Of a DNA stretch of 64,000 nt, positions 39,835 to 52,899 are shown one piece after another (the first letter of the stretch is position 1; every line of letters begins with the position of its first letter). Below the pieces are notes generated by a model, which searched no databases, was not told the origin of the DNA, and saw only the letters and a list, made by a program, of their open reading frames with translations. The translations under genes were made by a program, and so were the position numbers. Source of the stretch: Terriglobia bacterium (GTDB lineage Bacteria > Acidobacteriota > Terriglobia > Bryobacterales > Bryobacteraceae); the NCBI GenBank assembly GCA_021325235.1, contig JAJPHN010000016.1:1-64000 (forward strand), read 5' to 3'.

Positions 39835-40551
39835 ATGGACGCCGGCTTTTCTCTAACGGAAAGACTGCGGCTGTTTCTGACCGGTCATAACAGCGCGAGT
39901 GAGCAGGTGGCAATCGACGCACTGATGAGCGAACTGCTGCCCCGGTTGCGTGAAATCGCCATGCGGGAACTCAAGCGCGAGCGCTACATCGCGCCTCTTA
40001 CCAGGACCGAGCTGATCGGCGAACTATGGGCCAGCACACTCGCCGAGGGCGGCTGGCAAATCGAAAGCAGCGCGCACTTCTACGCTCTCGCGGGTCTCGC
40101 CATGCGCCATATTCTAGTCGATCTCGCGCGCAAGCGAATCGCGGATCGGCGCGGCGGCGGACAACTAACGCTCTCGCTCGAAGACCCGGCCGCCAGAATG
40201 AAAAGCTCGCTGGACGATGCCGAACAGATTGTCACGATCGGCATTCTCATGGACCGGCTCGAGTTGAAGGATGCGGATGCCGCACGCATGGTCGACATGC
40301 ACTACTTCGGCGGCTTCACGGTAGAGGAGATCGCAAGCAAAACCGGTCTCAGTCTGAAGCAGGTGCGTTCGCGCTCGGAGCGGGGAATGAAGTGGCTCAA
40401 ACGCATGCTGCATGCCAGGCGTGGCTCGAGCGATTATAGGATCCGCATCTGGCCCGAGCACTCCAGATCGCGCACCAGCGGAGCTGTAAATGCGCCCGCG
40501 TTATCCGGCCTGCGCGACGGGTCGAATTCGAAGGCGCTCGCCAGCAAGTAA
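39835..40551 (+). CDS. ECF-type sigma factor (acidobacterial/planctomycete group)
   Basis: This encodes 238 residues. Region 2 includes LTRTELIGELWASTL and HFYALAGLAMRHILVDLARK. Region 4 includes DADAARMVDMHYFGGFTVEE and IASKTGLSLKQVRSRSERGM. The pattern matches the ECF group often encoded next to Ser/Thr kinases in acidobacteria. The sigma domains end near residue 197. The last 40 residues come from 118 bases that overlap the 3' end of the convergent kinase gene, so the C-terminal tail may be a by-product of the overlap. Confidence 0.88.
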   Translation: MDAGFSLTERLRLFLTGHNSASEQVAIDALMSELLPRLREIAMRELKRERYIAPLTRTELIGELWASTLAEGGWQIESSAHFYALAGLAMRHILVDLARKRIADRRGGGQLTLSLEDPAARMKSSLDDAEQIVTIGILMDRLELKDADAARMVDMHYFGGFTVEEIASKTGLSLKQVRSRSERGMKWLKRMLHARRGSSDYRIRIWPEHSRSRTSGAVNAPALSGLRDGSNSKALASK

Positions 40552-43500
40552 ATCGATTCGCTCGAAAGTCCGAGCGACATCGATTCGAGCAGCTCGCGCA
40601 CCCGGTGCGGAAGATCGATCGAAGCCTGCGGAAGCAGATCCGACAACTTGCGGCCGGTGAGCATCTCAATAACGACCTTGGCGAAGCCGTAGATATCGCT
40701 CGAAGCTTCCGCGTATCCGACCGCCTGCTCGGGCGCCATATATTCGAACGTGCCCGCGGCGCGCGAGAGCCCGTGCAGCGATTCGTTCGCGTCTTTGACA
40801 ATGGCAATCGAAAAATCGATCAACACCGCCATCTCATTGGCTGAGCCGTAGTCGCGCACCATGATGTTTTCCGGCTTCAGATCGCGATGCCAGATGCCGA
40901 GCGCATGGATGGTGTCGAGTGCGCTCCCGATCTGGCGTAAGAATCGAGCCGTGCGCGGCGAAGGAAGCGGCCCATCTTTCAAAATCTCGCGCAGGCTCTG
41001 GCCTTCTACAAATTCCATCACCAGGTAAGGCGCGCCCGAGGCGGTCGTTCCATGCGCGTAAATCGAAACCACATTTGGATGATGGATCTTCTGCAGCGCG
41101 GCGACTTCCTGTTCGAAGCGATGCTCGAGCCAGCGCTTGTCTCTTACCTCGCTGCGAAAGAGTTTCACCACGCAGCTCTGTTGCCGTTCGCGATCGTAGC
41201 CGCACATCACGTTGGCAAAGCCGCCGCGGGCGAGCAGTTCGCCGATTTCGAAACGGCCGTCGAGAAGAGTTCCGGTCACCTCGCTCACTTCCGGCAGAAA
41301 GGCTTCCATGCGCCACGAACTCAGATCCGGCAAGACACGCGCCGCTTCAGTTTTGAATCTTCTCCGCAGCAGGAAGGCACCGCTCAGCAGCAGCATCCCG
41401 CTCAGCGTGTACGAAACAAGCAGCGGCCAAGATGCCCACGCCGGGCGGGAAACAAGAAACGAGCGGCTTGCCGTTGCCGACCATGGCCCGGTGAAGACGC
41501 GCGCCTGCAACTCGAGCGTATGCCTGCCCGATCCGAGCGATCCCAGCGCCAGATCGAGATTGCTCGTTTCCCGCCATTTGGAATCGCCCGGAAGAACTCG
41601 GTAGCGCACGCGCAATGCACTGCGGCGGTCAAACTGCAGCGATCCGAGATACGCCATCACATTTCTCGCATGCGGCATGCCCATTACCGATTCCGCCAGT
41701 CGCGGCGGCTGATTCTCCCAAGAAAAGGCAGATACGAATACCTGCGGCGCAACTTGCGGCGCGACCAGATCGGCCGCGGGCGTGTAATGAGCAAGGTCAT
41801 CGTCTGCACCCCACCAGAGCGAGCCGTCCACGTCCACAAAGACGCTTCCCGAATTCATGTCATTGGCCGGAAATCCATCCGACTGATCCAGCGACAGCCA
41901 CTCGCCGGCCTCGGCCTGCGACGCACTTGCCACGCCGATGCCCGACGCCCAGGAGCGCCACAAGCGTCCTGCGCGATCCGCTTCCAGCACATCGCTAGCA
42001 GGATCCGGCACGCCATTCTCGCGCTCGTAATTCCGTACCGCGATGCGCCCCTCCGCGTCCGGCCGGATGCGTGCAATGGCCCGGTAGTTGTAATACGCGT
42101 ACCAAATGTCGCCATTGGCCAGCGGCGCCAGCGACCAGCAGCCGTTCACCTTGAGTCCGTCGCTTGTGGTGTATTCGCGCCAGTTCCCGCGCAGATCGCC
42201 CAGCAGAAGGCCGCCGTTGTAGCAGGCCCAGAGCTTGCGTGTCTGCTCTTCATATTTGATGGCCAGCAGATTACCCGCCGGACTCGCGCGCAGCGTGTGA
42301 CTCTCGACCCTCAATACGCTTCCGTTGCGTACCAGCCGCGCCACGCTGCTTCGTCCTGTCCAGATCGTGCCGTCGGGCGTTCTGCAGAGGCGCATTCCAA
42401 TGTTCTTGCTTCCTTCTACAGTGCGCGCGACAATCGTGCCCGAGGGAGAAAGCTCGATATTTCCGCCCGGATCGGCAAAGCCCGCCATCAGCGTCCCGCG
42501 TCCCGTGTCGAGCAGCGCGGAAACCGAGCGCACGTTGTCCAGTTTCGTGATCGTCTCCCAGCGCTGGCGATCGCCGGTCAGGCGCACCACGCGATCGTCG
42601 AGCCCGGCAAACATGTTTTGCTTCAGGCGAGCAACCGACCAGGGCGGGCTGGTGAGCCCTTCGCGGATCGTCCAGGACTCGATCTGGAACGGCGAGGGGA
42701 AGCGATACAAGCCGTTGGTTGTGCCCAGCCAGATCGTTCCGTCTTTCGCCTCGATGGCATCCAACACGCCCGGCAATCCGTTGGCGCGCGTGGCAATCCG
42801 AAAGTGGCCGGGACGACCAACAGCCACTACATTTCCGCCCGGCAATACCATGTCGCCGTTCGCCGTTTCGTGCATCGGGCCGTGCACGTGCACATCGGCC
42901 GCGGGCGCCGATGCGTGAACACTACCCTTTTCGTACACCACGTTGGCCGGCGACGCAAACCATACGTATCCGGCGCGGTCGCGCACAATCTGCCACGGTC
43001 CATTGATGGGCCGGCCGCCTTCGGTTCCGTGCCGGATCACCTCGATCTGCTTCCCGGGCCGCCAGTTCAATACGTCGCGCACCCGCATCTCGCGCCATTG
43101 CGTCATGCTGTACGGATACAGAATCATGCCGTACGGATCGAGCGTAATCGGGCCGGGTGAATCGAGCTTCGCGACAATGTCTGTTTTCCAGCCGTTTCCG
43201 CTTCGCTCGATGCGCAGCAGCGAGGCATTCTGCGGAGCGCCTTGCCCCGCCGGTCCTGCTGCGGCGAGCACCACGTCCGACGTGACGGCGATACTCACCG
43301 CAACCGCTCTGCTGATTTCGGAAAACCGCCCGTCTGCAAATCGATAGATGCCCGTATCGGCCGCCACCCAGATTGCACCGTTCCGGTCTTCCGCGACGCC
43401 ATAGGTTGCGCCATCAGGAAAACCATAATCGCGCGCGAAAAAGAACCGGCTGCCATCGAAGCAGGCAAGCTGATCGCCTCCCAGCCAGAGCCGCCCGAGC

Positions 43501-43658
43501 GAATCCTGAAAGAGAAACTGAACGTTCTTCGGACCGCCCGGCACAGGCAGAAACGGGTACTGCTGTCCTGCAAGCGGCGAGCCGGCCATCGACACCATCG
43601 CCCAGATGGCGGCAGTTCGGCCCATCGCCTGCAATCCGCTTCTACGACGGCCTCTCAT
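40434..43658 (-). CDS. One-component sensor Ser/Thr kinase: beta-propeller, Y_Y_Y, membrane helix, kinase
   Basis: This encodes 1074 residues. After a signal peptide, residues about 30-640 contain two-component-type propeller repeats (VQFLFQDSLGRLWLGG, YGVAEDRNGAIWVAADTGIY, AIEAKDGTIWLGTTNGLYRF). A Y_Y_Y domain follows (about 650-735, LELQARVFTGPW), then one membrane helix (about 740-764). The C-terminal part (795-1074) is a Hanks-type kinase with Lys832, HRDLKPEN (924-931) and APEQ, but DFS (948-950) instead of DFG. Such sensors normally end in a histidine kinase. The alternative start is Met12. Confidence 0.9.
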   Translation of the reverse strand: MRGRRRSGLQAMGRTAAIWAMVSMAGSPLAGQQYPFLPVPGGPKNVQFLFQDSLGRLWLGGDQLACFDGSRFFFARDYGFPDGATYGVAEDRNGAIWVAADTGIYRFADGRFSEISRAVAVSIAVTSDVVLAAAGPAGQGAPQNASLLRIERSGNGWKTDIVAKLDSPGPITLDPYGMILYPYSMTQWREMRVRDVLNWRPGKQIEVIRHGTEGGRPINGPWQIVRDRAGYVWFASPANVVYEKGSVHASAPAADVHVHGPMHETANGDMVLPGGNVVAVGRPGHFRIATRANGLPGVLDAIEAKDGTIWLGTTNGLYRFPSPFQIESWTIREGLTSPPWSVARLKQNMFAGLDDRVVRLTGDRQRWETITKLDNVRSVSALLDTGRGTLMAGFADPGGNIELSPSGTIVARTVEGSKNIGMRLCRTPDGTIWTGRSSVARLVRNGSVLRVESHTLRASPAGNLLAIKYEEQTRKLWACYNGGLLLGDLRGNWREYTTSDGLKVNGCWSLAPLANGDIWYAYYNYRAIARIRPDAEGRIAVRNYERENGVPDPASDVLEADRAGRLWRSWASGIGVASASQAEAGEWLSLDQSDGFPANDMNSGSVFVDVDGSLWWGADDDLAHYTPAADLVAPQVAPQVFVSAFSWENQPPRLAESVMGMPHARNVMAYLGSLQFDRRSALRVRYRVLPGDSKWRETSNLDLALGSLGSGRHTLELQARVFTGPWSATASRSFLVSRPAWASWPLLVSYTLSGMLLLSGAFLLRRRFKTEAARVLPDLSSWRMEAFLPEVSEVTGTLLDGRFEIGELLARGGFANVMCGYDRERQQSCVVKLFRSEVRDKRWLEHRFEQEVAALQKIHHPNVVSIYAHGTTASGAPYLVMEFVEGQSLREILKDGPLPSPRTARFLRQIGSALDTIHALGIWHRDLKPENIMVRDYGSANEMAVLIDFSIAIVKDANESLHGLSRAAGTFEYMAPEQAVGYAEASSDIYGFAKVVIEMLTGRKLSDLLPQASIDLPHRVRELLESMSLGLSSESIYLLASAFEFDPSRRPDNAGAFTAPLVRDLECSGQMRIL

Positions 43659-45506: not shown

Positions 45507-47618
45507 ATGGCGCATGCGATCAAACGCCGCGATCTGCTCGCGCTACCTCTCGCGCTTTCTGTACCAGGCAGCCCTACGGCCGCCATCCTGATGCGTTTCG
45601 AGGATGGCTCCGTTCTGCACGCTGAAGGACCGGCCGATACCTGGCTGCTCGCGCCCGGCTCGACGATCAAGCCGTTTACCCTGCAGGCGCTCCTCGACGC
45701 GCATCGGCTCAGCGCGAGCGATCATTTTCTCTGCCCGGGCGTGCTGCATGTGGCCGGGCGCAATCTCACCTGCTCGCATCCGCGGGGGCTTCCGCCGCTC
45801 AACGTCACTAACGCCATCGCCTACTCCTGCAACTGCGCGGTCGCGCACTTTGCCCAGCGTTTTTCCACGGCTGAGCTTCAATCCGCGCTGCGAACCGCCG
45901 GCTTCCGCACGGCTCCAGCCAACCTCACTCTGCAGGCTCTCGGAGAAGAAGGTGTGCTCACCACTCCACGCGAACTCGCCCAGGCATATCGACGCCTCGC
46001 TCGATTGGCGCATCCCGCCATTCTCGCCGGCCTCGAAGGCGCTGTCCAATACGGCACGGCGCAATCCGCCGCTCTCCCCGGCTTTACGGTTGCGGGTAAA
46101 ACCGGAACCAGCCGCTACACCGCGCTCTTTGCCGGATTTGCTCCCAGCCGCGTGCCGACATGGGTTGTCACCGTTGCGACTCAGGGCCATTCCGGAGGTG
46201 CCGATGCCGCGCCCATTGCTCGCGAGCTGCTGCGCAAAGCCGCCGGCCCGAGCTATCGCGTGCGCATTCGCGGCACGATCGTGGAAATACCCGTCGAGCG
46301 CTACGTCGCCGCCGTGCTGGCCGGAGAAGCAAGCACCCTGCACCAACCCGAAGCTCTGAAAGCGATGGCCGTGGCCGCTCGCAGCTATGCAGCGCACGAA
46401 CGGGGACGCCACTCTCCCGAAGGCTTCGATTTCTGCAACACCACACACTGCCAGCGCGCCGAACTCAGCGGTATTACGCCTGCCATGGAAACGGCGGTTC
46501 AGACCACTGTCGGACGTCTGCTCCGCTTTCACGGCGAACTTGCCTTTGCACCCTACACCATGAGCTGCGGCGGTGTTGCCGAAGACGGGCGTGCGCTCTG
46601 GCCCGACCTGCGCGCTCCGTATTTACGCAGCCATCCCGATCCCTTTTGCGACAAAATCGAGTGGCAGCATCGGATCGCCTTGAGCGATGTCGAACGCGCG
46701 CTGCACGCCAGCGCCCTCGCCTGCCCAATGAACCTCGCGCGTGTTGCGATTGTCGAAAGAACACCGGCCGGGCGCGCCCGCCGTCTCGCGTTGGAAGGAC
46801 GCGAACGCGTGCTCATCGATGCCGGCTCGTTCCGCTTCGCCATCGGCCGCACGCTCGGCTGGAATCTCATTCGCAGCAACTGGTTCGAACTCGCGAATGA
46901 AGGCGGACAACTCGCCATCCACGGTAAAGGTGAAGGCCACGGCATCGGGCTTTGCCAGAACGGCGCCGAGCACATGGCCGCCGCTGGGCACAGCTATCGC
47001 GAAATCCTTGCCTTCTACTATCCAGGCGCGACCGCGCTTGAGTGGATCCGTCTGGGCGGCGAAGACATCACGCTCTACACGACAGATCCGGCACACGATG
47101 CCGCTCTGCTTCGGACCGCTGAACGCCTCAACCGCACTCTACCCTGGCCGGCTAGGGGAGCCGAAATCTATGCGTATCCGACGCTCGAGGATTTCCGCAG
47201 CTCCACCGCCGAGCCTGGTTGGGTCGCCGCGCACACCGTAGGCCGCCATATCGATCTGCAGCCTGCGCGCCTGCTCGCCGAGCGCGGCATTCTCGACGAC
47301 ACGCTGCATCATGAACTGCTCCATGTGGCAGTGGAAGCGCGTGCTCATCCATCGCTCCCGTTATGGTTTCGCGAAGGTGTTGTCGAGTGGCTATCGGGCT
47401 CGTATCCGCAGGGAACAGCGGCCGCGCCGGCTGATTCCGATCTGCGCCAGCGCACCGATCGCAGCCGTGCCGAACAGGCTCACCAGCAAGCGCGCGCACT
47501 TGTAAGCCAGCTGGTCGATCGTTACGGCGAAACGGCTGTGCTCGGCTGGATATCGCGCGGCTTGCCTGCCGAAGTAAAGAACTCGACCGCCAGCAGCGCC
47601 ACGACAAAGATCAGATAA
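45507..47618 (+). CDS. Fusion protein: penicillin-binding transpeptidase, SpoIID-like and HELLH metallopeptidase parts
   Basis: This encodes 703 residues. The N-terminus (KRRDLLALPLALS) may be an export signal. Residues about 45-240 show all three penicillin-binding motifs: S52-TIK, S107-CN and K198-TG, without the glycosyltransferase of class A enzymes. Residues about 250-515 match SpoIID/LytB lytic transglycosylase, with catalytic-region Glu274 (VLAGEAS), FDFCNTTHCQ and GKGEGHGIGLCQNGAEHMAA. Residues about 550-690 hold HELLH (602-606) and WFREGVVEWLSG. One exported protein could thus cut, cross-link and proteolyse at the wall. The last 97 bases overlap the convergent membrane-protein gene. 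Confidence 0.85.
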   Translation: MAHAIKRRDLLALPLALSVPGSPTAAILMRFEDGSVLHAEGPADTWLLAPGSTIKPFTLQALLDAHRLSASDHFLCPGVLHVAGRNLTCSHPRGLPPLNVTNAIAYSCNCAVAHFAQRFSTAELQSALRTAGFRTAPANLTLQALGEEGVLTTPRELAQAYRRLARLAHPAILAGLEGAVQYGTAQSAALPGFTVAGKTGTSRYTALFAGFAPSRVPTWVVTVATQGHSGGADAAPIARELLRKAAGPSYRVRIRGTIVEIPVERYVAAVLAGEASTLHQPEALKAMAVAARSYAAHERGRHSPEGFDFCNTTHCQRAELSGITPAMETAVQTTVGRLLRFHGELAFAPYTMSCGGVAEDGRALWPDLRAPYLRSHPDPFCDKIEWQHRIALSDVERALHASALACPMNLARVAIVERTPAGRARRLALEGRERVLIDAGSFRFAIGRTLGWNLIRSNWFELANEGGQLAIHGKGEGHGIGLCQNGAEHMAAAGHSYREILAFYYPGATALEWIRLGGEDITLYTTDPAHDAALLRTAERLNRTLPWPARGAEIYAYPTLEDFRSSTAEPGWVAAHTVGRHIDLQPARLLAERGILDDTLHHELLHVAVEARAHPSLPLWFREGVVEWLSGSYPQGTAAAPADSDLRQRTDRSRAEQAHQQARALVSQLVDRYGETAVLGWISRGLPAEVKNSTASSATTKIR

Positions 47619-48265
47619 CCGAGCGCGACACGCAGCGCAAAGCTCCAGAACTGCCCGCCGAAGCTTTCAATCTTCGGTATCCAGAAAAACAGCTTGAATG
47701 GCGCCGAGATTCCGACAAACAGCAGCACTCCGACTTCAATCCAATAGAGCGCGCGCCGGCTCTGCCGCAGGTTTGTCGCCTTCCAGCCGCGCCATCCCTC
47801 CACCGCAATGGCTCGCGCCAGCGGCAAAAGCAGCACCGGCACAACGACATACTGGACGATGTCGAGCACGATTTGAAAGAATCGCTCGACACCGCGCGGT
47901 GAGACCGGCTTTTTGAGGTGCAGCGTCAGCCACGAGCCAATAACATAGGCCGGCCGCGCCAGTTGATTGCCAGTCCACAGCAGCGCGCCATAGAGCACTA
48001 GGGTAAGCAGACTCAACAGTATTAAAGGCGCCAGATGCCGCGCGCTTTGCCGGGCCGCCTCGGCCAGCGGAATGCCGGAAAAATGCGCCAGCCCCATTCC
48101 GTGCAGCCATACCGCGCCCGCAACAAACACCAGCGCCACCACCACGCTCCAGATCAGCCGCGCATTGGTCGATTCATTCACGCCCAGCCAGTAATACGCC
48201 AGCCACAACAGCAGAGCATTCCCGATGAGATGACAAACGAACAATGCTCCTCGCGACCGCATCAC
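47522..48265 (-). CDS. Polytopic membrane protein of unknown function
   Basis: This encodes 247 residues with about six membrane helices (near 8-28, 37-57, 80-100, 135-155, 175-195 and 210-232). It overlaps the alpha-2-macroglobulin stop by 4 bases, so it is the last gene of that operon. Its own 3' end overlaps the convergent fusion gene by 97 bases. I recognise no family; a role in anchoring or supporting the macroglobulin is guesswork. Confidence 0.7.
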   Translation of the reverse strand: MMRSRGALFVCHLIGNALLLWLAYYWLGVNESTNARLIWSVVVALVFVAGAVWLHGMGLAHFSGIPLAEAARQSARHLAPLILLSLLTLVLYGALLWTGNQLARPAYVIGSWLTLHLKKPVSPRGVERFFQIVLDIVQYVVVPVLLLPLARAIAVEGWRGWKATNLRQSRRALYWIEVGVLLFVGISAPFKLFFWIPKIESFGGQFWSFALRVALGYLIFVVALLAVEFFTSAGKPRDIQPSTAVSP

Positions 48266-51200
48266 TTCACCTCCAGCGTGGCCGCGCCCGTTGTGGCCTG
48301 ATATTCGGGCTGATACATCGGCTCCACGCGCGCCGGATTGATGTGGAACAACCCCGGATTCACCACTTTCAGCACATAGAAGTACTGCTTCTGCTCGCGC
48401 CCGTTAAACCAGTCGTCGAAAATCGCGATACGGTTGTCGTGATTCTCGCGCTCGGTGAAGAAATACTGCCACCACGGCGGCGATTGTGTCAAATGATACA
48501 AATTGTCGTCCTTCACGAATTCGGTCCCCGCCGGAATCGGATCTTCGGTGAGCAGGTAACGCCATTCCGAACCAGTCACGGTCAGCCGTACGGCCAGCAC
48601 ATCGCCCTGCGCCACCGGTCCGTTCAGCGGCTGCAGATCATAAACAATCTCTCCGCCCGTTTTCTGCGGAACGAGCCGATAGTAGTCGCGCAAAATATTG
48701 AGCGAAATGTTCCCCTGGTTCTGCGCCTTCGCTTCGTTCGAGTAATAGTCGCCCGAAACCGAGTAATACAGCCGACCGGCGCCGCTGGCCTCAATTTCGA
48801 TCTGATTGCCCTCGGGCCGCAGCTTCGATTCGTCGATCACGATCGAATCCACGGAAGCCAACGAATCCGCGCCAAACTCCGCGGCCCCCGCATCCAGGCC
48901 ATTGATCCGCACGCGCGCCTTCAGATTCGGTGTCAGCTCTTTCGTCGTTTTCACATAGTCGATCAGGCCGTAAATCACCATCGCCGTCTGCTTGGTAGAC
49001 GACCACCAGAAGCCCTCATTGCGGTGATCCACCAGCCACAGCGCCGCCTTCGGCAGCAGCGGGCTGTTCGGCTGCTCATGGCTGATCAGCTTCGTCGCAT
49101 ACGCAGTCGTCTCGGGTGTGATGTCCGCCGAAAAATCGAGCATCTCGTCGCGGGTTGCGGACCAGGATGCCTCGCGCTCGTCCTGCCGCACGTTCTTCGC
49201 CAGATCCGCTGCAATCGCACCGGCACGTGGATCCTTCACGCTTTCAAACGCCAGCCCGAGAATCGCCAGCCCATACGGTGACATCTGCCCGCGCTCGGTA
49301 TACAACTGTTCCAGCGCACTCTTGTCCGGACGCCCCGAAACCGCCAGCGCATACGCCATATAGGCGTGCAGATCGGGCGGAATCTTGCTGTTGTGCGCAA
49401 AGTAGTCCTCGATCCAGGTATCGCCTTTATCGATGGCGTCGTTCTCGACCGCCACTCCGGCACTGCGCGCCTCGCTCAGCCCATCCACCACGTACGCCGT
49501 CATAAACGGATGGCTCGCATCGCTCGTCCACCAGCCCCAACCGCCGTCTTCATGATGGAATCCGTAGAGCCGTTCCAGGCCCGCCTGCGTCTTCTTCGCC
49601 AGCGCGTCCGCATCGAGCGGCTGCTTCAGATTCAGCTCGCGCATGGCCTTGGTCACAATCACGTCCGGCAGAAAACTCGACATCGTCTGCTCGACGCACC
49701 CATACGGATAGGCCGTCAGATATTCAAGCGCGCTGAAGATCGAGCCTGCCACCGACGGCGCCAGCTTGATCGAGATCGAGCGCGATCCGGTCACCGCGCT
49801 CCCCGGATACGTTATTGTCAGGCTCTGCTGCCCCGCATTCGCAATACTGCCGCTGTGCGGTTGGCGAATGAGCACGCCCGGCGGATTGATCGGCAGCTCC
49901 AGCTCGAGCGCATCCGATTCCTCATCGGTCAGCGCGGCCGCGGTAATCTTCGCCTTGTGCAGATTCTGCGCCTTCACGCGCCAATCCACTTTCGTCTCGC
50001 CACGCAGCGGTACCGTCACGTCCTGCGAGGCCGCGCCGCCGATCAGGTCGAGCCCCTGCAGCTTCACATTCACCTTCGCCTGCTTGCCCGTCTGCAGATA
50101 GTTGTGCACGATCGCCGAAATCACTACTTCGTCGCCCTGCACGAAGAAGCGCGGCACCGCCAGCCGTAGGATCAGGTTTTTGCGCACGATCGTCTTGAGC
50201 GTCGCCGAGCCGTAGCGATCGTCCACAGATGCGCCCCGCGCCGTCGCTCGCCAGGTCGTCAGCGAATCCGGAAAATTGAACTGGGCCTGCGCGTGGCCTT
50301 TGGCATCGGTCGTTATATCCGCCGCCCAGAACGTCGTATCCGGAAAATATTTTCGAATCTTGGGCTGCACCAGCTGTTCCGGCTTGAGCTGCGCCAGTTT
50401 GCGCGCCGCCGGTATTGCCGCCAGCTGCATGCGCCGCGTACCTGCTTCACCCGAGAAGTAATAGGTGAGCGAATTCTCGGTCGTAACGCTGTTCCCCGTC
50501 ACTCCGTAGAAAACATCCACCAGGTCCGGCGTGCGGTCCGGCATAATCGCATAGATCGCTTCATCCACCACGCCCAGGCTCAGATCCGTTTCGGCCGCGG
50601 GCTTGCCGTTCGCATCCGATACATCGATGTTGTAGGTCGCGCGCGCGCCCGGCTGGTATTGCGGCTTATCGGTCGCCAGCTTGATCGTCAGCTTATGATC
50701 CTCGGGCGGAACCTTGATGCGCTTCTCTTTCTGATACATCACGCCGCTTCGCAAAAACTGCGCCGAGACAAAGAAATTCGGCTCGTCGTCCCTGGTCACC
50801 TTGTACGTGAAAATCGCCGTACCGCCCTTCGAGCGCAGAATCGAGTGCGACCGGATATCGCGCCCCTCCACCGTCACCAGCACCGGCGTGTTGTCCTGGC
50901 CGGTTGCAATCATGATCTGCGCCGTATCGCCCGGCTTATACGTCTTCTTGTCCGCCACCACCTGAATGGCGCGGCTCGGGTCCGCGTCGCCGTAAATGCT
51001 CGACCAGCCCGATACCCAGACATACTGTTCGCTTTCCACCGTGCGATCGCCCGAGGGCGCCGTCGACACCACTCGATAATCACCGCCTTCACGCGGCAGT
51101 TTCAGCGATACGTTTCCGTTTCCCTCCGCGTCCGTTCGCACATCCGCCGAAGCGAGCACCGATCCCTCCGAGCGCGCCGTCCAGTCCCACGAGCGCAGCT

Positions 51201-52899
51201 CCACATGCACCGGCGCTGAAACCGGCTTCTGATCGTAGTCGCGCGTCCGCACCGTGAAACTTGCCGTTTGTGATGGCTGATAGAACCAGCGGTCCGGCTC
51301 GAGCCTGATCAGGAATGAGCCGTAGGTCGCCACCACCCAGCCCGTTCCGGAAATCTCGCGCCCGGCCTTATCCGTCACTCCGGCTTCGATACGGTAGAGC
51401 GTGTCAAATTTCTTCTCCTCCACATCGGTTGGCAGATCGAAGCTGAATCTTCCGTCCGCATCCAGCGTGCCTTCGCCTTCGTTGGTCTGGTTGTTGTAGC
51501 CGTAATCGTTCGGCTCGTCAGTATTGGCCTCTTCTTCGTCATCGCGGTCGTACCAGAAGGAAGCCCAATAGCGACTGTTGAAAATCGAATACTTCACCTT
51601 CGCGCCTGCCACCGGCTCCCCGAAGTAGTAGCGCGAATCGATCGTCACCTTCGTCGATTCTCCCTGCAACACCCGCGGCGCATCCGCCTTCACGTGCACT
51701 TCGTACTCGGGCTTCTTGTACTCCTGCACTTCGAAGTTGCCGGTCACTGTGCTTTCGCCCGTTCGCGCCTCGATGTAGTAGTAGCCGAGCTTCGCGTCTT
51801 TGGCCAACGCGAGCTCGTCGTGAATCACACCCTGCGCGCTGCTTGAAAGCTGCTTCTGATACACCGTTTTTCCGTCGTTATCGGTGATCTGCACGGAAAA
51901 TGATTCGTGCTTCGGTACGCCGTAGCCGGCACTCTGGGCGTATCGCAGAATGCCTCGAAAATGCATCGTGTTGCCCGGCCGGTAGACCGGACGATCCGTA
52001 TACACCACGCCGGTCAGATTGCGCTCGCGGCGGAAAAAGCTCCACGTTTCTATATCGTCGAACGCCACATCGCCTTCGCTCGACGCCACGCTGCGAATAT
52101 CGCTGGCCGGGGTTGCGTGGAGCGGAAATTCGGCCGTGCCGTCCGCGCCGGTGTGCAGCGTCGTGCCCGTTGCGTTGCGCTTTTCCATCACGGTTACGGC
52201 CGCATTCTCCACCGGCTCACCCGTCTTGCGATTCGAAACGTAGTAGAGGATGTGATCGCGCCCGGTCTTGGTCACCAGCACCAGGTTGGAAACATTCAGA
52301 ATGGTGTACGCGCGCAGCTTCCCGTTCACGCCCTCTACCAGATACAGACCATTCTTCTTTACCGGTACCTCGACCTTCTGGGTGTCCCAGCGGCTGCCCG
52401 TATCCGATACCGGCTGCACAAACGAAAGCACCAGCTGTTCGGAATTCAGCACCGGCGCGTCCGCAAAATACTCGACTCGCTTCTGCGCCTTCCCAGCCGT
52501 CTCGGTGGCGCGATTCGGGAACAGATGCGCCCGCGGCGATTCCGTGAACTGGTGCCGCACATCGTAGCGAATGTCGCGCCGCAGATCGTGCTTCCAGCTC
52601 CGCAGCCGCTCCAGCAGACTCGGCTTCCCGCGCGGCTTGCGATGCGCCCCGCCAAACTGATGCGCGTCCTCCAGCTGCCGCACAAATTGCACCGGATCGT
52701 TGATGCGGTACACGCGAATGCGCAGCGCTGAAATACCGTAGGCGCTCACCTGCACCGATGGCACGCCCCCTGGACCAAACGTCTCGTTGCTCGCCAGCGT
52801 GAAAAACGGCCGGTCCTCGTCCTGAGGACTCCCCGGAATCGCGATTGCCAGCGCAATCGAAATACGCAACAGCGCGGCGGCGAGCCGCTTCGTCTTCAT
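48262..52899 (-). CDS. Bacterial alpha-2-macroglobulin with thioester motif
   Basis: This encodes 1545 residues with an N-terminal signal ([12 protein letters not shown]) but no lipobox, unlike E. coli YfhM. The long run of macroglobulin-like beta-sandwich domains includes [20 protein letters not shown] and [18 protein letters not shown]. The thioester motif is GCVEQ (Cys1068 to Gln1071) within [17 protein letters not shown], followed by an alpha/alpha toroid ([20 protein letters not shown]) and a receptor-like C-terminal domain. Such periplasmic proteins trap proteases that enter through damaged outer membrane. It overlaps genes on both sides by 4 bases. Confidence 0.93.

Follow-up and report, generated by a model that had tools for sequence, protein, structure and literature searches.

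A fused relative of YfaQ with transpeptidase, SpoIID-like and putative zincin parts, encoded beside a thioester macroglobulin operon

The window (the whole 64,000-nucleotide stretch of DNA analysed here) encodes a protein, P0001, that joins transpeptidase, SpoIID/LytB and zincin-like parts in one chain. We consider it reasonably probable, if well short of certain, that P0001 is a fused relative of Escherichia coli YfaQ with intact motifs, and that it operates as an exported enzyme of peptidoglycan remodelling or repair in concert with a periplasmic alpha-2-macroglobulin (A2M), its catalytic activities being predicted ones. Sequence and model provide folds for the transpeptidase and SpoIID parts, three intact sets of motifs, a convergent A2M operon, changes between one-gene and two-gene states in related loci, and co-occurrence with DUF1175.

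Architecture and active-site motifs

An earlier note on this DNA had proposed that transpeptidase, SpoIID-like and HELLH metallopeptidase parts are combined in a single protein. This is borne out by profile matches, confident modelling, fold comparison and conservation, and the motifs lie at the residues it named: S52-K55 (SxxK), S107-C108-N109 (SxN) and K198-T199-G200 (KTG) in the first part, E274 in the second, and H602-E603-L-L-H606 (HELLH) with the downstream E623 in the third. In the ORF list the gene starts with ATG at 45507, and its stop codon ends at 47618. The AlphaFold model that the note had called for was built with 61 alignment rows and is confident (Table 1). The profile searches it suggested succeeded for two of the thirds, which exceeded the cut-offs for PF00905 and for PF08486 and TIGR02669, whereas the third part stayed below every cut-off.

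Table 1. Features of the three-part gene and of the convergent operon in the window
Feature	Position	Strand	Basis
Three-part protein P0001, 703 aa	45507..47618	+	ORF; AlphaFold mean pLDDT 92.3, pTM 0.85
Penicillin-binding transpeptidase part, residues about 21-248	45567..46250	+	PF00905, fold, motifs
SpoIID/LytB part, residues about 249-512; Glu274, H302, C310, H314, C315	46251..47042	+	PF08486, TIGR02669, fold
Zincin-like part (putative), residues 513-703; H602ELLH606, E623	47043..47615	+	motif conservation, model, Foldseek
Hydrophobic protein, 247 aa, no Pfam match	47522..48265	-	six hydrophobic stretches (simple scale)
Alpha-2-macroglobulin (A2M), 1545 aa, CVEQ thioester motif	48262..52899	-	MG2, A2M, TED, bait, bMG domains
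A2M thioester motif C1068-V-E-Q	49687..49698	-	motif search
DUF1175 (YfaT-type, NlpC/P60-like) protein, 236 aa	52896..53606	-	PF06672, E 1e-58

Related loci, 56 in all, were collected by scanning genome contigs with a third-part profile. The search pattern lay in a TGEPGWVA-like stretch at residues about 565-574, and conservation there is therefore biased; the catalytic motifs formed no part of it. Judged by their titles, all of the loci are from Acidobacteria but one, a MAG labelled Acidimicrobiia. Chance occurrence of the P0001 motifs was considered and ruled out, because the catalytic motifs are kept almost throughout these 56 loci.

The first part is a penicillin-binding transpeptidase by profile, motifs and fold, with predicted activity. 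PF00905 matches in two stretches, of which the better covers residues 49-173 (E 9.6e-21, 74.7 bits against a Pfam cut-off of 22.1), and structure alignment of the modelled part with the transpeptidase domain of 4r3j gave a Z of 28.8 and an rmsd of 2.5 over 228 residues. SxxK, SxN and KTG are kept in all 51 transpeptidase ORFs found among the 56 loci. The N-terminus of P0001 (45507-45560), KRRDLLALPLALS, is Tat-like in appearance; a loose RR-hydrophobic pattern, which also gives false positives, occurs in 31 of the 51 transpeptidase ORFs.

By profile, glutamate and fold, the second part is of the SpoIID/LytB type, for which glycan cleavage is predicted. PF08486 matches residues 257-339 (E 8.5e-16, 58.8 bits against a cut-off of 23), and TIGR02669 (SpoIID_LytB) matches residues 258-509 (158.1 bits against 83.3). 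The modelled part superimposes on Clostridioides difficile SpoIID, 5i1t, with a Z of 28.2 and an rmsd of 2.5 over 258 residues. This fold and the glutamate are common to the SpoIIDs of C. difficile and Bacillus anthracis, both of which, unlike P0001, are stand-alone proteins lacking transpeptidase or zincin parts. C310, H314 and C315 align with the C...HC residues of C. difficile SpoIID, a feature common to the two proteins and, in the latter, presumably zinc-binding. All 56 rows that cover these sites keep E274, H302, C310 and C315, and 55 of them keep H314 (the SpoIID set of the related loci has 59 rows, three of them fragments). In alignments with the solved SpoIIDs E274 falls on their glutamate; it would be the counterpart of E88 of B. 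subtilis SpoIID, which is reported as essential in the text available of PMC6635528.

The third part is assigned as a putative zincin from its motif and a middling fold match. H602, E603, H606 and E623, that is, HExxH and a downstream glutamate, are kept in all 56 related loci, and in the model HExxH lies on a helix (596-612) and E623 on the next one (619-629). No Pfam family exceeded its cut-off for the third part of P0001 or of 10 relatives scanned. The weak Pfam matches of those relatives were mostly to zinc-peptidase families and DUF2300 (SprT-like in 5 of 10, eCIS_core in 5, Peptidase_MA_2 in 4, DUF2300 in 2), and some single matches were unrelated. A weak NCBIfam match to flagellinolysin at residues 594-643 (16.5 bits) fell below the cut-off of 205, and a third-part profile run against PDB sequences returned two matches, both to an unrelated enzyme and with an E of 0.28. 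In a broader third-part search, 172 out of 297 genomes from the phylum had a match at E 1e-5; the weak ones among these matches are for the most part taken as other zincin-type proteins. Modelled alone, the third part reached a pLDDT of 94.6, and its sole Foldseek match below E 0.001 was the peptidase domain of a clostridial collagenase (E 1.5e-4). VIA-align ranked a TFIID chain first (Z 11.6), followed by M9 collagenases, the M30 peptidase lugdulysin and M1 aminopeptidases (Z 10-11.5, rmsd 3.5-5.6); by the tool's note a Z of 10-11.6 is middling, and such values can be ordinary for helical domains. These fold matches are supportive of a zincin assignment without deciding it.

The macroglobulin operon and the gene states of related loci

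The genes for the hydrophobic protein, the A2M and the DUF1175 protein all lie on the minus strand, joined by four-base overlaps and convergent to the three-part gene. Where at least 3 kb lies downstream of the gene (41 loci), A2M is present, and always convergent, in 38; it was not found in the other three (L088, L092 and L095). Over all 56 loci, A2M was seen in 43, DUF1175 in 36 and relatives of the hydrophobic protein in 45; every A2M ORF of at least 1100 aa in these loci (36 of 36) has GCxEQ. The DUF1175 protein scores 24.2 bits with NLPC_P60 (cut-off 23), and its D67, C68 and H166 are kept in 37 of 37 rows, E. coli YfaT among them; DUF1175 is classed as an inactive peptidoglycan-binding family in the available text of PMC10318531. 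The three-part and hydrophobic-protein genes overlap tail to tail by 97 bases (47522-47618), an exact overlap that recurs in 19 of the 45 related loci showing both genes.

In 60 related genomes, with the zincin part called at E 1e-20, the zincin part and DUF1175 occurred together in 8. The two fragmented genomes G025 and G033 had only the zincin part, three had only DUF1175 (G009, which is in pieces; G013, which is 62% complete; and G027), and 47 had neither. This co-occurrence has a Fisher p of 2.6e-6, or 1.1e-5 without the window's own genome, kinship being ignored. Searching 60 related genomes, the window's own included, with the whole of P0001 gave matches in 18 at E 1e-10, several of them generic SpoIID matches. 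None of the 12 plasmid records matching P0001 covers 80% of the protein, and the best 10 of the 12 match only within residues 211-520.

Three parts in a single chain are an atypical state, two adjacent genes being usual. Four of the 56 loci are fused, with all three parts in one ORF, and 47 have a separate transpeptidase ORF. No transpeptidase ORF was found within the stretch in the other five (L057, L081, L095, L096 and L102), three of which start at or near the stretch end; the L102 genome has a transpeptidase ORF of the P0001 type on another contig. The longest ORFs of the split loci overlap in 44 of 47, by exactly four bases in 17, and the SpoIID gene mostly has a hydrophobic N-terminus of its own. 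The SpoIID and zincin parts share one ORF in 55 of 56 loci; the SpoIID frame is broken in L065, L067, L072 and L086.

A tree was built from 57 SpoIID-zincin rows and an outgroup. In it P0001 groups with the split L054 and L051 (support 99/99), and the other five fused sequences (L084, L088, L091, L100 and L040) fall together with six split ones into a clade of 11 (100/99). The one-gene or two-gene state needs four changes on this tree, at least two of which are forced by well-supported branches. That fusion and separation have alternated repeatedly suggests that the parts work together.

The MAG labelled Acidimicrobiia (Actinomycetota) holds a whole split module (L056:8313-17082) whose sequence nests among acidobacterial ones, a case of mis-binning or transfer. 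At L043:7753-9308, in a related genome, the genes for a short transpeptidase (215 aa) and a SpoIID protein (303 aa) overlap; neither a zincin part nor an A2M match was found in the 18 kb covered there.

Comparison with YfaQ, the mag operon and PbpC-YfhM

A comparison with YfaQ was another suggestion of the earlier note. YfaQ has its parts in the same order as P0001, and the P0001-family profile matches it at 97.3% (E 2e-11), colinear over the transpeptidase part and the SpoIID start; YfaQ itself matches DUF2300 and also SpoIID (27 bits, cut-off 23). Its gene does lie with yfaS: the E. coli K-12 cluster comprises yfaA, yfaT, yfaS (a pseudogene), yfaQ and yfaP and, like the window, holds an A2M and DUF1175. 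The cluster genes all run in one direction, whereas those of the window are convergent, and the YfaS-type A2M of a Citrobacter relative lacks CxEQ, whereas the window A2M has CVEQ. YfaQ keeps SxxK and the SpoIID glutamate, but its motifs are partly eroded, with SCG for SxN and KTW for KTG (SCN and KTG in the relatives of P0001), and it lacks about 120 residues of SpoIID. Near its end stands HEYLH, followed by a glutamate 12 residues later.

The third part alone gives a weak profile match to the YfaQ end (3%, E 0.015), in which HExxH aligns on HExxH. DUF2300 gives sub-threshold matches (about 4e-4) to the third parts of two split relatives, and its best scores on split relatives are 20.8 and 21.0 bits against a gathering cut-off of 25. 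P0001 gave no match to Pfam DUF2300 at E 1, and a genome search gave none at the locus. Judged from these comparisons, the transpeptidase and SpoIID parts have good support for sharing an ancestor with YfaQ, and for the third part such an origin is likely. Two plasmid searches, each with 7 matching records, returned no YfaQ relatives outside enterobacteria.

The earlier note knew of no described protein with these three parts, a claim that holds only in part. YfaQ has the same order, and two of its parts are on record, since it was described in 2025 as bipartite, transpeptidase-like and SpoIID-like (PMC12282094, available text). Its third, peptidase-like part seems unreported there: that text contains none of metallo-, peptidase, HExxH, zinc, DUF2300 or macroglobulin. 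The same text reports that yfaQ deletion gives wider cells, resembling wall and membrane remodelling mutants. Within open-licence PMC, that paper was the only one, among seven containing yfaQ, to have it in the abstract, and no paper was found for DUF2300, for yfaQ with yfaS and macroglobulin, or for SpoIID, transpeptidase, metallopeptidase and macroglobulin combined. The two-part description of YfaQ being known already, what is apparently new is the third, peptidase-like part together with a full set of intact catalytic motifs.

The window A2M adjoins DUF1175-type and YfaQ-type genes, as does the A2M of the Pseudomonas aeruginosa mag operon (MagE, MagC, MagD), where gene order suggests that MagC is the DUF1175-type partner and that MagE is, presumably, the YfaQ homologue. 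The mag operon is a Type II A2M system whose A2M lacks CXEQ, unlike the window A2M, which carries a thioester motif although its gene neighbourhood is mag-like. The mag-type partners DUF2135 and DUF2138 were not found in the window's genome at E 0.001. As P0001 falls below the DUF2300 cut-off and its module lacks two mag features, we place it in neither group. Pairing of a thioester A2M with mag-type partners blurs the division of bacterial A2Ms into Type I and Type II. By score the window A2M stands closer to those of Deinococcota (Deinococcus and Meiothermus, 608 and 590 bits) than to YfhM (144 bits) or Citrobacter YfaS (190 bits); the Deinococcus and Meiothermus A2Ms also adjoin DUF1175. 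The two Deinococcota plasmids inspected, out of five such records, carry DUF1175 with a thioester A2M, and over about 18.6 kb their gene tables, which are incomplete, show neither a transpeptidase nor a SpoIID gene annotated.

The mag gene set is magABCDEF, and magE deletion alters the amount and forms of MagD (PMC5764988, available text). The same text reports MagE as cytoplasmic and a stable MagD-MagE complex as not found, which, by analogy, would count against a reading of P0001 as an exported enzyme paired with a macroglobulin. P. aeruginosa MagD protects against VgrG3 and gives limited protection against Tae1, both of them T6SS effectors that target the wall; it gave none against TseH or Burkholderia thailandensis, and in the available text the assays concern magD, not magE (PMC12663445). 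The E. coli PbpC-YfhM pair (PBP1c plus a Type I A2M) is similar in that a thioester A2M gene adjoins a gene for a penicillin-binding protein, but PbpC is a different, bifunctional PBP, unlike the transpeptidase part of P0001. Wall repair is proposed for A2M with PBP1c in the Introduction of PMC5764988.

Alternative readings and a proposed mechanism

P0001 might mainly serve the A2M, its zincin part clipping or maturing that protein and the other two parts merely holding it at the wall, a reading that we regard as the main rival, though a rather unlikely one. The convergent A2M of 38 of 41 loci would suit such a role, as would the M1- and M9-type fold relatives of the zincin part, since peptidases of these types act on proteins. 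The effect of magE deletion on MagD (PMC5764988, as available) also speaks for it. An anchor-only role for the first two parts is disfavoured, because mere anchors need no conservation of catalytic motifs and these are kept in 51 of 51 transpeptidase and 56 of 56 SpoIID sequences; moreover, three loci that have the zincin part show no A2M. That P0001 is a housekeeping enzyme of wall growth or division, with the A2M operon as an incidental neighbour, seems unlikely to us. The action of SpoIID homologues at septa in other bacteria (PMC6635528, available text) and the altered cell width on yfaQ deletion (PMC12282094, likewise) agree with it, but both the patchy occurrence of the module, in 10 of 60 related genomes, and its co-occurrence with DUF1175 fit an accessory module better. 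That two separate genes were falsely joined in assembly is very improbable: the genome is a draft of 60 contigs and most related loci do have two genes, but five other fused sequences (L084, L088, L091, L100 and L040) stand elsewhere in the tree, the joint between the transpeptidase and SpoIID parts has no second signal peptide or hydrophobic N-terminus, and the AlphaFold model is confident along the whole chain.

The reading that we favour, an exported wall enzyme working with the A2M, suggests a division of labour. The A2M would trap intruding proteases, the SpoIID part would cleave or trim glycan strands at the damaged site, the transpeptidase part would re-form stem-peptide cross-links and the zincin part would cleave a protein or peptide at the wall. 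Enzyme and A2M would then constitute a module of wall defence and repair, comparable to the mag operon and to the role proposed for PBP1c and its Type I A2M, and most likely the module works like the YfaQ and mag systems. Its motif-intact relatives give YfaQ and MagE a testable biochemical function, and it offers a possible reason for the protection that a macroglobulin operon affords against wall-attacking T6SS effectors. A more specific and quite doubtful idea is that the zincin part is a dedicated convertase of the adjoining thioester A2M, in the manner of complement; it would cut the A2M only at places of damaged peptidoglycan occupied by the SpoIID and transpeptidase parts, and re-linking of the wall would then coincide with release of the thioester at the breach.

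Elsewhere in the window, an ORF of 1074 aa at 40434-43658 joins a propeller of the two-component-regulator type to a Ser/Thr protein kinase domain.
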